Source: Methanobrevibacter sp. TLL-48-HuF1 (GTDB lineage: Archaea > Methanobacteriota > Methanobacteria > Methanobacteriales > Methanobacteriaceae). Taken from it: 64,000 bases of DNA. The stretch spans positions 1,726,501 to 1,790,500 of the forward strand of contig NZ_CP081485.1 of assembly GCF_023617305.1 (NCBI RefSeq), given 5' to 3'. The position numbers were made by a program, and so were the translations under genes. Under the pieces are notes generated by a model that saw nothing but the letters and a program-made list of their open reading frames with translations, was not told where the DNA came from and did no database searches. Positions 27,676 to 35,467 of this stretch are shown one piece after another; position 1 is the stretch's first letter, and each line of letters begins with the position of its first letter.

Positions 27676-28161
27676 TTATTTTTTCCTTTTCATTAAAAGT
27701 ACTCCAATTGGAGCACCAACAAGAATACCTATTATCAATCCAATGAATAACGGCACAGCAAATGAACTTTGAGACTCTTCATTTTGTGTTGGCGCATTCA
27801 TTATTTTATTTAACCCGTCTTCTATTGTATCATTGTTAACGTCGTCAACTACAATAACCCTATCAGATACTTCTGAATGTTTCTTTAAAAATTCATTTCC
27901 GCTGTCCTGATATGCTATCATTAATATGCGTTTGTTTGTGTTGTTTACAGCGTGTTCTAAAATATGTTCTACATCAGCCTGTGAAGTAAATTTATAAACA
28001 CTGATATTCATTCCGTTTGAATCAGCTATGTCTTTAGCTAACTGTCCGTTTGTTTCATCTGCGATAACCATTGTATCAGCAGTTACATCAACTCCATGTC
28101 CGTATACAGCAGACATGATTAAAGGTATTAATAAAATTATAATTAAATATTTTTTATTCAT
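27676..28161 (-). CDS. Small extracytoplasmic membrane protein partnering CbiM/NikM
   Basis: The ATG at 28161, five bases after the cbiM stop and preceded by GTGAT, is preferred over an ATG four codons upstream that overlaps cbiM. The product has 161 residues: an N-terminal signal/TM helix, then YGHGVDVTADTMVIAD, a mixed alpha/beta external domain, and a C-terminal helix FAVPLFIGLIIGILVGAP with KRKK at the end. The two-helix plan and the His-Gly right after the signal resemble accessory CbiN/NikL-type subunits of nickel/cobalt ECF transporters, where the exposed N-terminus helps bind metal. I did not recognise the family directly, so the role rests on context. Confidence 0.6.
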   Translation of the reverse strand: MNKKYLIIILLIPLIMSAVYGHGVDVTADTMVIADETNGQLAKDIADSNGMNISVYKFTSQADVEHILEHAVNNTNKRILMIAYQDSGNEFLKKHSEVSDRVIVVDDVNNDTIEDGLNKIMNAPTQNEESQSSFAVPLFIGLIIGILVGAPIGVLLMKRKK

Positions 28162-28165
28162 AGTA

Positions 28166-28786
28166 TCACTCATTAATCTCCATTATTTCAGGTTTCATAG
28201 TTTTAATTGCACTTATAATAACCACATTTGCAGCTCCTTCAATTATTGATATAAATAAATAAAATGGAAGCAATGTTGCAAGTAATGCGTTTAAACTCAT
28301 AGTTCCAGATATTAATAATATAATTATTTGTCCAAGTGTTGCGAATATAATTCCAATTACTGTTCCTCCAAATATTGCAAACTTTTCATTTAAGTCTTTA
28401 AATAAAGTGTAGAAGAAGTATGTTGTTATGGATATTATAAAGCCTATTACTATAAAATTAGCTCCAAGAGAAGTTAGTCCACCCATATTCAATGCTAATG
28501 CCTGTATAATTAAACTTATAAATGCAACTATGCTTGAGGAATGTGGTCCTAATATAATTGCAATTAATGGAATTAAAAAGAAATGAATCGGAACACCGAG
28601 AGGTGAAGGAATAGACAGTGATGTAATGATTACTGTAAATACACTAAAAATAGCCATTGAAACAATTTTTTTGTCTTTTTGACTGTCTTTTTGAAATTTA
28701 TAGAAACATATTGCCATAATTAATATTGTTAAAATCCAGTAGATAAGTGCCTGGTCTATAGTTATTATTCCATCGGGTATATGCAT
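28166..28786 (-). CDS. cbiM: Energy-coupling factor transporter S component CbiM/NikM (cobalt or nickel)
   Basis: In this 206-residue, six-helix membrane protein the N-terminus MHIPDGIITIDQALIYW contains the family-defining MHIPDG. In NikM structures the N-terminal amine, His2 and a buried His coordinate the metal. Loops such as FSVFTVIITSLSIPSPLGVPIHFFLIPLIAIILGP also fit CbiM. No gene for the CbiQ/NikQ transmembrane coupler or the CbiO/NikO ATPase is nearby, so these must be shared or elsewhere. Nickel rather than cobalt is favoured by the NikR-like operator upstream and by hypE nearby. Confidence 0.88.
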   Translation of the reverse strand: MHIPDGIITIDQALIYWILTILIMAICFYKFQKDSQKDKKIVSMAIFSVFTVIITSLSIPSPLGVPIHFFLIPLIAIILGPHSSSIVAFISLIIQALALNMGGLTSLGANFIVIGFIISITTYFFYTLFKDLNEKFAIFGGTVIGIIFATLGQIIILLISGTMSLNALLATLLPFYLFISIIEGAANVVIISAIKTMKPEIMEINE

Positions 28787-28824
28787 TATATCACTTTTTC
28801 ATTTATATTCTTATATATTTAAAG

Positions 28825-28852
28825 GTAATATGTATTTAAGACTTTTTATTAC
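28825..28852. promoter_or_regulatory. NikR-like operator 1 (GTAATA-N16-TATTAC)
   Basis: This is a perfect inverted repeat of two hexamers separated by 16 bases: GTAATA at 28825-28830 and TATTAC at 28847-28852. E. coli NikR uses the same 6-16-6 geometry (GTATGA-N16-TCATAC). The site lies directly behind the predicted cbiM TATA box. The regulator gene itself is not in the window. Confidence 0.6.
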
Positions 28853-28872
28853 TTTTTTGCCATTTTTCATTG

Positions 28873-28949
28873 AAAAGTATTACTTTTTAAACATTTTTAC
28901 TAATTGTATGTCGTTAATTGGTACTTTGTCAATATAGTAAGTATTACTT
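28873..28949. repeat. Two short palindromes built on GTATTAC
   Basis: AAAAGTATTACTTTT (28873-28887) is a perfect 15-bp palindrome around one T, and AAGTATTACTT (28939-28949) is an 11-bp one. Both lack a correctly spaced partner hexamer, so they may be weaker or auxiliary sites of the same regulator, or belong to a second one. Confidence 0.45.
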
Positions 28950-29107
28950 TTGATTAAATGGTATATTAATTAAATTGCCATAGGTTTAACGAATATTATG
29001 AACATTGTTCTGTTTGTAGGTCTTTGAAACTGATTTGGTGATGCTGGATAACTTGGTATTGCTATTGGTGCTTTCTACGAAGGGGGTTTCAATTTTTTTT
29101 TAAAAAA

Positions 29108-29116
29108 AGTAATACT
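29108..29116. repeat. Palindrome AGTAATACT
   Basis: This 9-bp perfect palindrome (centre A at 29112) is the same motif in reverse orientation. It sits 32 bases upstream of operator 2. Confidence 0.35.
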
Positions 29117-29140
29117 ATTTTTACTTTTTTTTCATAATCC

Positions 29141-29168
29141 GTAATAATTATATTTATATGGGTATTAC
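29141..29168. promoter_or_regulatory. NikR-like operator 2 overlapping the TATA box
   Basis: GTAATA at 29141-29146 and TATTAC at 29163-29168 are separated by exactly 16 bases, identical in layout to operator 1. The spacer contains the TATA box of the following gene (about 29149-29160), so occupancy would block TBP/TFB binding. Repression by metal-loaded protein is inferred. Confidence 0.62.
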
Positions 29169-29239: not shown

Positions 29240-32083
29240 ATGGTTGTTAAAAATAACGGGAAGCGATTCGTGTTTATATTATTGGTCGTGACATTAATTG
29301 CTTTAATGATGGGCAATGTTTGTGCAGAAGATGTTAATGGTACAAATGTTGATACATTAACACCAACTAAATCAATTAATGTAGAGGTTAATTACGAATA
29401 CGCAAACGATAATAATAATGTAATTCCTGATTTTTATATTTACTCAGGTGAGGATAAAATAGAATATAACAAGGAGCTGGTTAGCTCAAACAGATTTGTT
29501 CTTACATTTAATGATAATTCTTCTAATGGGTATAATATAACTGCTTTGACTGCAGGATATATCTCTCAAAGTCAGATTATCAGTGATTCCATTACTTTTA
29601 ATTTAAAAGCTAGTGATGCATATAAACTTGGTCGTGATGTAACTGCTGATGCAGACAGGTTATTGGACTTTAAAACTGCTGATGATATTCTTGTTGTAAC
29701 AACAGCAGGAGTTACCAAGTTAAATGGTAAATCAACTGAAGATGCTCTTGAAGCTATTTTAAACTACGGAACTAAAATTAAATATTCAAATGTTTTAATG
29801 TTGCGTGACACTGCTGTTAATCCAATTGATTTTGCTTTTATTGTTAAAAGAGGAAATGAATTAAAAGCAGTAATTTATGAAAACGGTTCAAGATCTTATT
29901 CTTACTTAGGTACAATTTCTGAAAATATGACCAGAGAACAATGGAATAATTATTTCAAGTCTATTCATGGTCAAAATGCTTGGTCATTTGCAAGTTTAGC
30001 TAATGGATGGGTTGCAGGTGTTTCTAGAGAAGTACTTCAGGAAGCAGCATTTCATGGACATATCTGTGAAGGTACACTTGGTGGTTACAGTATTGTCAAA
30101 GCTTTAATAAAATATTATCCTCCAGTTCAAGAAACTTTAACTGGTGGAGGATCTCCAGCTGATGTTACTTCCTACAAAATATTAGGAGTTCCTGGAGGCT
30201 CTGATGATGATGCAGTACTATTTTTCTTAGATGCTACAATTGGTAAAACTTCATATGTTGGAATTGACACCACTGCAACTGGTGCTACTGAAAACATGAT
30301 TGGTTTTATTAGATGGGATGCAAAATCATTATTTGGTGATTTAATTATAATGAGTTTTGATTCTAAGAAGATAAAAGCTGATTTTAAAGCCGAAACTGGT
30401 ATTAATGCTGATGCTGGAAGCTTAGAAGAATTAAAATATTGTACTTGGTGGATTAATAAAATTAATAAAAATCCTGAAGAATTAGCAACATTTTTATATG
30501 AATTTACTAATTTAACTGAAGAACAATACTATTATTTGATGGGAACTGCAAAAAGTGTTGTTCATGGTAATGTATCTATTGATCCTATTGATTCTCATGG
30601 ATTAGATATGAATTATATTTTATCATTAAATTTACCTAAAGCAACAAGAACTGTTTCTTCTAATGGGTCTGCTTCATTATCTGATAAAGAAATGAAAAAT
30701 ATTGCTTATGAAGCATTCAATAAAGCTAATGCTATTTTTAAAAAGGAATTAAATATTAATTTAGGTAAAGATAATGTGGATTTAGGTATATTTACTTCTG
30801 CAGGTTATGTTTATTTAAATGGTAAAGAAACTGTTGTAATACGTGATGGACTTCATGAAATTGCTGGTGCAACTCTATACAGTAAAAACTTGTTACAATA
30901 TCACCAGGCATTATGGAAACCATTATGGTTTACATTTATATTGCGTAATCCTAATTCTGATGTTTTATACTCAGTTTATTTAAGGTATAATCCTGATGGA
31001 ACATGGTTTGTCGGTGAATTAAATGGAAGTAATGTTGTTGATATTGGGATTGAAACTTTAAACAATTCTGTAAAAGTAAAAGCAATTCAAAAAACTTTCA
31101 TGCCTGATAAAAATTGGAATAATATTCAATCTATTGCAAATGCATGGAAATCAAATCCTAATTTTGATCAAATAATGGCTTTTTTATACCATAATCATGT
31201 TTGTCCGGGTGTACAGCCTGGATTTTTCATAACTGATTATATTCAACAGAATCATCCGTTAGGTGAAAATGAATCATATAATTACATTGCATCTAGTACT
31301 TATTGTAAAGATGATAGTTTGACTTATTTGTTAGGTGTATCTCCGGGTATGGGAACTTATTTTGTTCAAAAATTACCTGATTCTGATGTAACTTCTGCAT
31401 ATGTGGAGGGAGCTACTGATGAGGGTGCTTTAGTTATTTGGGATAATAATTTAAATATTGGTCGTGTTGTTATTGTTTCATTTAAATGGCCTAAAGTAGA
31501 TACTAGTATGTATGCTACTTCTGAAGCAAAACGCGCTGCTCAAATTCAAGCATTCATTGATTTATACAAGGGAATAAATAATCCAAATGTTTTAGAAAAA
31601 TTTGTTGTTAAAACCAGTGAAGAAAAATGGATTACTGCTGAGCAATTTAATTTATTAAAGTCAGGATCTGGTGAATTAAACACTATGTCTTATATTAAGA
31701 GTCTTGACGGTTCAGTAACTAAAGAAGATTTGTTAAAACAGTTAGAAAAGAATAACAATTCAAACACTAATACTAATGTTAACAATAATACTAACTCTAA
31801 TTCCAACTCTAATGTTAATGAAATATCTCATTCATCAGCAAGCAGTGCAGGTGTTTATAATAATCGTAACACACCGCAAAGTAGTAATTCTAATGTTGGC
31901 GATTCAAATAATGCATTAGATCCAAGCAGTGCTGATTTAGGTTCTGATAATGGTAAATCTTATGAAGTTTCTAAAAAATCTCCAGCTAAATCCATTAATC
32001 CAGATTATATGCCATATGTAGTAATTGTCATATTAATTGTAGGAATATTAGTTGGTGTAGGTTATATGAAACATAGAAAATAG
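29240..32083 (+). CDS. Surface protein with two FmdE-like metal-binding domains
   Basis: The 947-residue protein has a signal peptide (residues 12-30, ending NVCA), a beta-rich N-terminal domain, then two halves built alike: a domain with LNGK and a Trp-rich segment, followed by an FmdE-like domain. The His-Cys signatures are FHGHICEG (about residues 271-278) and YHNHVCPG (about residues 649-656). An Asn/Ser-rich spacer (about residues 835-915) leads to one C-terminal helix VVIVILIVGILVGVGY with a KHRK end. True FmdE subunits are cytoplasmic; this one is exported and anchored, with no other fmd genes nearby. The His/Cys sites could bind nickel or zinc. It is divergent from cbiM and under a NikR-like site. 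The family is fairly sure; the function is inferred. Confidence 0.8.
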   Translation: MVVKNNGKRFVFILLVVTLIALMMGNVCAEDVNGTNVDTLTPTKSINVEVNYEYANDNNNVIPDFYIYSGEDKIEYNKELVSSNRFVLTFNDNSSNGYNITALTAGYISQSQIISDSITFNLKASDAYKLGRDVTADADRLLDFKTADDILVVTTAGVTKLNGKSTEDALEAILNYGTKIKYSNVLMLRDTAVNPIDFAFIVKRGNELKAVIYENGSRSYSYLGTISENMTREQWNNYFKSIHGQNAWSFASLANGWVAGVSREVLQEAAFHGHICEGTLGGYSIVKALIKYYPPVQETLTGGGSPADVTSYKILGVPGGSDDDAVLFFLDATIGKTSYVGIDTTATGATENMIGFIRWDAKSLFGDLIIMSFDSKKIKADFKAETGINADAGSLEELKYCTWWINKINKNPEELATFLYEFTNLTEEQYYYLMGTAKSVVHGNVSIDPIDSHGLDMNYILSLNLPKATRTVSSNGSASLSDKEMKNIAYEAFNKANAIFKKELNINLGKDNVDLGIFTSAGYVYLNGKETVVIRDGLHEIAGATLYSKNLLQYHQALWKPLWFTFILRNPNSDVLYSVYLRYNPDGTWFVGELNGSNVVDIGIETLNNSVKVKAIQKTFMPDKNWNNIQSIANAWKSNPNFDQIMAFLYHNHVCPGVQPGFFITDYIQQNHPLGENESYNYIASSTYCKDDSLTYLLGVSPGMGTYFVQKLPDSDVTSAYVEGATDEGALVIWDNNLNIGRVVIVSFKWPKVDTSMYATSEAKRAAQIQAFIDLYKGINNPNVLEKFVVKTSEEKWITAEQFNLLKSGSGELNTMSYIKSLDGSVTKEDLLKQLEKNNNSNTNTNVNNNTNSNSNSNVNEISHSSASSAGVYNNRNTPQSSNSNVGDSNNALDPSSADLGSDNGKSYEVSKKSPAKSINPDYMPYVVIVILIVGILVGVGYMKHRK

Positions 32084-32154: not shown

Positions 32155-32640
32155 ATGAATTTTAAAAATATATTATTGTTAATCTCAATAATTTCTCTAA
32201 TATTTGTTTGTGTAGGTGGAGTAGCTGCACATCCTGGACACGGACATGAATATATTGAAGAGGTTTCTTCATCTTCAGATTCTCCACAGTCAGCTCCTTC
32301 ACATTCCGGTTCATATCAACAGTCTCATTCTTCAGGTGGTTCTTTCGCTTCTCACACTTACCAATCTGAAAGTTCTCAGGGAGTGGCTGAAAAAACACAT
32401 AGTTCTACTGGCGGAAAATCTGCCAAATCCAGTGTTGATTCACAAAATGAGGTGTCTGATTCTGGAGATATGAATGTTGATGAGGTTAATAATTCAAATA
32501 CAACAGATAACAGTACTGCAGAGGAGGTAGTTGAAGAAACTAATCCTTTATTTAGCACATCTAATATTCTTATTTACATAGTGGTTTTTTTAGTAGGTTT
32601 ATTTGGTTCAATATGTTTAATGAAATTATTTTCTAAATGA
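32155..32640 (+). CDS. His-led secreted membrane protein
   Basis: The protein has 161 residues. The signal peptide (residues 1-25) should be cut after GGVAA, giving a mature N-terminus that starts HPGHGHEYIEE, with three His in the first six residues. The middle is Ser/His/Asn rich and probably unstructured. One C-terminal helix NILIYIVVFLVGLFGSICL with a KLFSK tail anchors it. The plan (external N-terminal His cluster, flexible stalk, anchor) fits a metal scavenger. It lies 71 bases after the FmdE-like gene on the same strand and 210 bases before hypE. I know no named family. Confidence 0.7.
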   Translation: MNFKNILLLISIISLIFVCVGGVAAHPGHGHEYIEEVSSSSDSPQSAPSHSGSYQQSHSSGGSFASHTYQSESSQGVAEKTHSSTGGKSAKSSVDSQNEVSDSGDMNVDEVNNSNTTDNSTAEEVVEETNPLFSTSNILIYIVVFLVGLFGSICLMKLFSK

Positions 32641-32850: not shown

Positions 32851-33870
32851 ATGTCAGAAGATAAAATTAGTATGAATCATGGTGCTGGTGGAGAGGTAAT
32901 GGCTAATTTAATCTCCAGTGCTGTTTTGGATAATATCACTAAAAAAAGTGTTAATGGTGGTATTAGCTTAGACGCTTTAGATGATGGTGCAACTATTCCA
33001 ATAGGTGACTATGAGATTGTTGTAACTACTGATGGCCATACTATCGACCCGCTATTCTTCCCTGGTGGAGATATTGGTAGGATTTCCGCAGCAGGAACTA
33101 TTAATGATGTTTCTGTTATGGGTGCTAAACCGCTAGCTATTTCTAATGCGATTATTATGCAAGAGGGTTTCCCTATTGCTGATTTGGACAGGATAATGAA
33201 ATCCTTAAATGAAACTTGTGAAGAAGTTGATGTTGCTGTTATTACTGGTGATACCAAGGTAATGGAGCAAGGTAAGATTGACGGTATTGTAATGGTAACA
33301 ACAGGTATTGGAATAGCTAAAAAAGGAGAGATTGTTCGTGATTCTACTTTGGAAGTTGGTGATAAAATAATTGTCACAGGTTCTTTGGGAGACCATGGAA
33401 TGAGTCTCATGTCTTTTAGGGAAGGTTTCGGTTTTGAAACTGATTTGAAATCTGATACTGCTCCGATGTGGAATGTTGTTAAAAAAGCACTTGATGTAGG
33501 TGGAGTTACTGCTATGAAAGACCCTACCCGTGGCGGCTTTGCAAATGCAATTAATGAAATGGCTTCAAAATCTGGAAAAGGTGTTTTACTTCATCAGGAA
33601 GCAATTCCAATTAAAAAAGAAGTTCATGCAGTTTCTGAAATGTTAGGTATTGATCCCTTTGAAGTGGCTAATGAGGGGAAAGTCGTTATGGGTGTTAAAG
33701 CTGATAAGGCTGAGGAAGTTCTTGAAGCAATTAAAACTGAAGAATATGGAAAAGATGCAGCTATTATTGGTGAAGTTATTGAAGGAGATTATGTTGTTGT
33801 TGAAACTCCAATTGGTGGGGAAAGAATACTTGAAGCTCCAATAGCCGATCCGGTTCCAAGAGTATGTTAA
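32851..33870 (+). CDS. hypE: Hydrogenase maturation protein HypE
   Basis: HypE dehydrates the thiocarboxamide on its own C-terminal Cys to thiocyanate, supplying the CN ligands of [NiFe] hydrogenases. The 339-residue protein has MNHGAGGEVMANLI near the start, TTDGHTIDPLFFPGGDIGR, MKDPTRGGFANAINEMA and the essential C-terminal PVPRVC. The ribosome site AGGAGA is present. Methanogens need it for F420-reducing and Mvh/Ech/Eha-type hydrogenases. The RDD-protein gene follows after 12 bases. Confidence 0.97.
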   Translation: MSEDKISMNHGAGGEVMANLISSAVLDNITKKSVNGGISLDALDDGATIPIGDYEIVVTTDGHTIDPLFFPGGDIGRISAAGTINDVSVMGAKPLAISNAIIMQEGFPIADLDRIMKSLNETCEEVDVAVITGDTKVMEQGKIDGIVMVTTGIGIAKKGEIVRDSTLEVGDKIIVTGSLGDHGMSLMSFREGFGFETDLKSDTAPMWNVVKKALDVGGVTAMKDPTRGGFANAINEMASKSGKGVLLHQEAIPIKKEVHAVSEMLGIDPFEVANEGKVVMGVKADKAEEVLEAIKTEEYGKDAAIIGEVIEGDYVVVETPIGGERILEAPIADPVPRVC

Positions 33871-34981: not shown

Positions 34982-35467
34982 TTATACACTGCCTTTAGCA
35001 AATTCGCTTGGAGGTATGTACATAATTTCCGCCAGATTTTCGTTTAATAATTCTCTGTTTATATCTAAATCTTCAGTATAAACAATAGCTAATGTTCTGT
35101 TGTATTTGTCGTAGTGTTTTTTATCATCAATATCTAAATAAACTGTTTTTCCAAGGCATTTTTCTTTAACATAGTCTTTTGCTTCGTGATAGCCCGGTTC
35201 TCCTCGTTCAGGAGTGTTTACCTGCACAAATCTGATTTTTCCAATACCTTCTACCCAGATTGTATCTCCGTCTACGACTTTGTAACATTTTCCACTAGCT
35301 TCATAGTGTACATTTCGCACTTCATGAGTTTTGGAATCCTCAATATTAAGTGTTCCCTGTGAAGGTGCAGCTGCTACTTCATTATCCATGAAATGCATAG
35401 CAGTTGAAACTGCAAATACTCCAACAAATAATATAAGTAATATTAAGGAGAGGTTTCTAGCTTTCAT
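34982..35467 (-). CDS. Membrane-anchored thermonuclease (SNase-like)
   Basis: The 161-residue protein has an N-terminal signal or anchor helix (residues 6-24) and the SNase domain (about residues 58-155). The catalytic set is visible: CYKVVDGDTIWV with Asp, IRFVQVNTPERG (Arg and Glu) and KYNRTLAIVY (second Arg). It would act outside the membrane, perhaps degrading foreign DNA for nutrients. The Ca-binding Asp pair (VDGDT) is intact. Confidence 0.9.
   Translation of the reverse strand: MKARNLSLILLILFVGVFAVSTAMHFMDNEVAAAPSQGTLNIEDSKTHEVRNVHYEASGKCYKVVDGDTIWVEGIGKIRFVQVNTPERGEPGYHEAKDYVKEKCLGKTVYLDIDDKKHYDKYNRTLAIVYTEDLDINRELLNENLAEIMYIPPSEFAKGSV

Follow-up and report, generated by a model that had tools for sequence, protein, structure and literature searches.

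Paired GTAWTAC palindromes at a divergent cbiM/FmdE-like locus of Methanobrevibacter as predicted operators of the nickel regulator NikR

The window analysed here is a stretch of 64,000 nucleotides from Methanobrevibacter sp. TLL-48-HuF1, and the locus in question centres on cbiM (28166..28786, minus strand; PF01891, E=6.5e-41, 140.9 bits), a solitary metal S component of the CbiM family. The protein has the CbiM domain and an N-terminal MHIPDG, which fits the MHxPDG pattern of CbiM/NikM S components, and it scores below the cut-off of every NCBIfam equivalog. Neither in the window nor in the Methanosphaera operon does cbiM adjoin genes for the N, Q and O components that would complete a CbiMNQO or NikMNQO transporter. 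A conserved partner of cbiM, the HGVDVTAD protein (27676..28173, minus strand), has a signal peptide and a C-terminal transmembrane segment and is 51% identical to the product of the gene downstream of Methanosphaera cbiM. The plus strand carries a gene for a secreted or anchored protein with two FmdE domains (29240..32083; PF02663, E=9.8e-19, two stretches), a partner gene whose product combines a signal peptide, a histidine-rich AHPGHGHEY start and a C-terminal transmembrane segment (32155..32640), and the [NiFe]-hydrogenase maturation gene hypE (32851..33870; TIGR02124, 400 bits against a cut-off of 251.6), a neighbour that is a candidate member of the regulon described below. The FmdE-like, His-rich and cbiM genes of Methanosphaera and other genera form one same-strand run, with the HGVDVTAD gene next in those loci that could be read that far; the window, like its near relatives, has the three genes split into two divergent transcripts. 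The CbiM domain, the His-rich and FmdE proteins, the common upstream sites and the neighbouring hypE together suggest that this module captures and imports nickel, or possibly cobalt.

The 453-bp spacer between the divergent genes holds the inverted repeat GTAATA-N16-TATTAC twice, at 28825-28852 on the cbiM side and at 29141-29168 on the FmdE side, with identical hexamers and identical 16-bp spacers. Both copies had been reported in a first-pass annotation, which read them as NikR-like operators, and re-reading the sequence confirmed their positions and spacing. The true repeat unit is the palindrome GTAWTAC, strictly or mostly AAGTAWTACTT; every dyad hexamer sits in one such unit, and the dyads are parts of larger GTAWTAC arrays. 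Three additional elements in the spacer had been overlooked: GTATTAC at 28877-28883, within the palindrome AAAAGTATTACTTTT and at a distance of 31 bp from the cbiM-side dyad's inner half-site; GTATTAC at 28941-28947 (AAGTATTACTT); and GTAATAC at 29109-29115, which precedes the FmdE-side dyad by 32 bp and is kept in relatives (all spacer elements are given without strand). The annotation had also placed both dyads at TATA boxes. For the FmdE side this holds, judged by eye, as the dyad encloses the TATA-like TTTATAT (29153-29159) at a plausible distance from the gene. On the cbiM side the dyad does abut a TATA-like stretch (28810-28823), but a weaker one lies inside the dyad, and the sequence would allow either to be the one in use. 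The same promoter region contains a second conserved palindrome, TAACAWTGTTA, whose core in the window is AACATTGTT (29001-29009); it occurs 17 times in 23 promoters of cbiM1/FmdE operons, against 0.3 in shuffled sequence.

A scan of the whole genome (1,951,395 bp) returned perfect GTAATA-N16-TATTAC at two places, both of them in this spacer, and in this sense the dyad is uncommon. The reversed control likewise occurs at two places, and with up to two mismatches the dyad is found 502 times against 694 for the control, showing no genome-wide enrichment; the genome-wide dyad count is therefore not evidence by itself. The expectation from independent hexamers is about 0.3-0.4 dyads per genome and 7e-5 for the 453-bp spacer. 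When the spacer was shuffled by mononucleotides, one dyad arose in 3 of 20,000 cases and two dyads in none of 20,000. Two perfect dyads in a single spacer of this length are not a chance occurrence.

The strict palindrome AAGTAWTACTT gives a clearer genome-wide picture, with 29 occurrences against 3 for the reversed control. Across 67 genomes of the genus the counts are 942 and 264, with an excess in 65 of them. Clusters of sites lie upstream of four loci, all conserved across the genus: the cbiM/FmdE-like pair of the window, a second, cbiMNQO operon (genome position 707302), a nikABC-like ABC operon (420056) whose binding protein has NikA as its nearest match but scores below the NikA cut-off, and a P-type metal ATPase gene (1927436). 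Single sites were found near the cluster of the winged-helix gene, nikR and hycI and, at 1357131, some 240 bp ahead of mcrB, which belongs to the nickel enzyme methyl-CoM reductase; that the mcrB site is single and distant counts against the NikR reading. Other nickel-related genes, which the first-pass annotation had suggested looking for beside further matches, do carry GTAWTAC sites. A gene at genome position 35385, for a DUF3344 surface protein of 997 amino acids, has three AAGTAWTACTT upstream (35183-35254) and is a possible further member of the regulon. The few matches inside genes are probably due to chance.

Conservation is the decisive evidence for the dyads. Upstream of cbiM1/FmdE in 11 relatives we counted 45 GTAWTAC against 1.1 in shuffled sequence; the corresponding numbers are 81 against 0.8 ahead of cbiMNQO (20 genomes) and 112 against 1.3 ahead of the P-type ATPase gene (26 genomes), while control heptamers of similar composition occurred 0-4 times in the same upstream regions. 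The FmdE-side dyad keeps its exact N16 in eight of 12 near relatives and in one Methanosphaera; the spacing is N17 in two more distant members of the genus, and the canonical N16 dyad is absent from the FmdE promoter in four of the loci compared (L013, L018, L021 and L024). The exact N16 dyad also stands at another gene, in the nikA-like promoter of 12 relatives. In four other genera (g8, g9, g12 and g15) the orthologous operon is preceded by a dyad, spaced N16 or N19, that in most cases surrounds a TATA-like box. The cbiM-side dyad is less constant: its left G is lost in the closest sister species, others have N18, N19 or direct repeats, and the exact N16 is not conserved in the relatives compared. 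AAGTAWTACTT is unenriched in genera g14-g17, though their NikR reading strand is identical, which weighs against NikR; in g15 a dyad is nevertheless retained upstream of the orthologous operon. Taken as sequence features, the dyads are real and conserved, and they belong to a genome-wide set of sites at predicted nickel or cobalt genes.

Several NikR operators are available for comparison: GTATGA-N16-TCATAC in Escherichia coli (PMC7055735), TRTTA-N15-TAWTA in Helicobacter pylori (PMC5385501) and GTGTTAC-N13/14-GTAACAC in delta-proteobacteria (PMC545781). The 6-16-6 geometry that the first-pass annotation had noted as common to the dyads and E. coli NikR is indeed that of the E. coli operator, and written as seven-mers the window dyad becomes 7-N14-7 with the core TAWTA, so that both geometry and core fit known NikR operators. 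The half-sites are inverted and 21 bp apart from start to start, about two helical turns; GTAWTAC agrees with the consensus TRWYA / GTRWYAC without being identical to the E. coli GTATGA; the sites lie upstream of transport and enzyme genes for nickel, some of which may serve cobalt; and the same genome encodes NikR. As at E. coli nikABCDE, a 6-16-6 inverted repeat whose half-site begins with GTA stands at a nickel-uptake gene, but here the hexamer is GTAATA, the promoter is archaeal and each promoter has several half-sites. The H. pylori operators share the TAWTA core, the spacing of about two turns, a regulon extending beyond one operon and, in the protein, an RxSxS reading strand; they differ in their 20-bp spacing, against 21 bp here, and the sites of the window have G/C flanks (GTAWTAC) and are highly symmetric. 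With the delta-proteobacterial signal at nikMQO/nikK the window has in common the 7-14-7 geometry and targets that pair a CbiM/NikM-type transporter with extra surface components, whereas the core there is GTGTTA rather than GTAATA.

The literature searched gave no consensus for an archaeal NikR operator. According to the citation in PMC10617489, Rodionov et al. predicted NikR sites in eight methanogens in 2006; these resemble the present sites at the level of targets, a NikR regulon of nikMNQO-type transporters. In Methanothermobacter marburgensis, nickel limitation raises the levels of NikR1, of a CobN-like protein and of proteins that may chelate metals (PMC12350162). Because of this earlier prediction and the response of NikR1, the window sites are best classed as a predicted further case of a known type of NikR operator.

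The genome does contain a ribbon-helix-helix NikR homologue, on which the first reading of the dyads depended. Its single nikR gene (476690-477154) encodes a ribbon-helix-helix domain and NikR_C (PF08753, 1.1e-30), scores 240 bits with NF002169 against a cut-off of 111, and falls under the cut-off of TIGR02793. The protein aligns to P. horikoshii NikR (2bj1) with E=1e-36, and all four nickel ligands (His/His/His/Cys) are present. Of 139 genomes of the family, 125 have nikR, and MRISMSLP, the strand of the protein that reads DNA, does not vary across the family. Co-occurrence of nikR and motif is consequently uninformative as a test of NikR, the gene being near-universal, and the reading strand does not discriminate motif-rich from motif-poor genera. 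It also counts against NikR that its gene adjoins no target other than its own operon, where a site occurs in only the two closest species. Directly 5' of nikR throughout the genus is a winged-helix-like gene of no known family (L004 9232-9699).

We suggest that both dyads are probably operators of NikR acting as a nickel-responsive ribbon-helix-helix repressor, a reading of the first-pass annotation that the present comparisons support; NikR as the binder, its dependence on nickel and repression as the sign are what we infer from sequence. When nickel is plentiful, Ni-NikR tetramers would occupy GTAWTAC half-sites in pairs that share a face of the helix, with a separation of two turns within the dyads and of about three turns for the extra half-sites. 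Bound NikR would occlude the TATA/TFB region and so silence the orphan cbiM as well as the genes for the FmdE-like and His-rich surface proteins, and under nickel limitation both divergent promoters would open. Repression is the likely sign, as any protein sitting on one of the dyads would keep TBP/TFB from the promoter. Half-sites 21 bp apart would suit one NikR tetramer, while those 31-33 bp apart, about three turns, would call for looping, a further tetramer or a different mode of binding. P-type ATPases of the kind found at 1927436 usually belong to an exporter family, and the resemblance of this one to exporters is a point against NikR, as an uptake repressor would not be expected there. 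One possibility is that this ATPase imports metal, another that its site has a positive effect on expression.

Other readings of the sites have to be weighed against NikR. An accidental origin in AT-rich intergenic DNA has a negligible probability in our judgement: the genome is about 71% AT and the relaxed dyad is unenriched, but both perfect copies share a spacer whose shuffles never produced two, and conservation across species and genera already refutes chance. It is also very improbable that GTAWTAC is a core-promoter element, a BRE or TATA companion of strong promoters rather than a regulated operator. Such an element could explain why GTAWTAC often brackets TATA-like boxes and why some sites face intergenic regions without ORFs, but strict sites number only about 30 per genome and are concentrated at metal genes, and the unit occurs in multiple copies on both sides of TATA at variable distance.

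The sites might instead be operators of a different regulator of metal genes, be it an HTH-CBS protein encoded near the ATPase gene, the winged-helix protein whose gene is paired with nikR, or a cobalt or zinc sensor. The HTH-CBS gene is close to the ATPase gene in many relatives, the winged-helix gene keeps its place beside nikR genus-wide, and targets such as the cbiM genes and the P-type ATPase gene could be cobalt or zinc genes. The HTH-CBS gene was rejected as regulator: it is syntenic with the ATPase gene, yet its own promoter has no site, and the next gene is deoxyhypusine-synthase-like rather than a metal gene. The core of the half-site and its spacing of two turns fit NikR in particular, and the target set (nikA-like, cbiM, nikR-hycI, mcr) is centred on nickel. 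We therefore hold another regulator to be unlikely and prefer NikR.

In front of the P-type ATPase gene, modules of about 41 bp with the form GTAATACTGAGTATTTAAATGAACTCAAAAAAAGTAATACTT, each with a TATA-like box at its centre, are repeated in tandem two to four times; these promoter/operator modules occur genus-wide. We put forward, more tentatively, that the NikR-type operator of Methanobacteriaceae may have a second form, in which GTAWTAC units 31-33 bp apart bracket the TATA box in single and tandem modules, so that the P-type metal ATPase and the surface uptake system of solitary CbiM, FmdE-like and His-rich proteins would answer to one nickel regulator. Methyl-CoM reductase and hydrogenases require nickel, and nickel supply therefore limits methane production. 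The sites supply a concrete and testable predicted NikR regulon for this group, they would give a four-gene surface/CbiM operon, so far uncharacterised, a link to metal uptake, and they put an operator sequence at hand for a direct test of archaeal NikR.

Two further observations concern possible RNA elements. An Rfam scan of the window and the cbiMNQO leaders returned two tRNAs only, with no match for a conserved possible hairpin, ATRTCAAG...CTTGATAT, that lies in the cbiMNQO leader, flanked by two promoters with the motif (L053 7118-7235 and relatives); this hairpin has nine pairs, two of them with double changes, and a weak energy of -2.73. At genome positions 477826, 1722221 and 1944579 the motif and a TATA-like AAGTATTTATA face intergenic stretches without clear ORFs, which are candidates for non-coding transcripts; H. 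pylori NikR controls non-coding RNAs too (PMC5385501).
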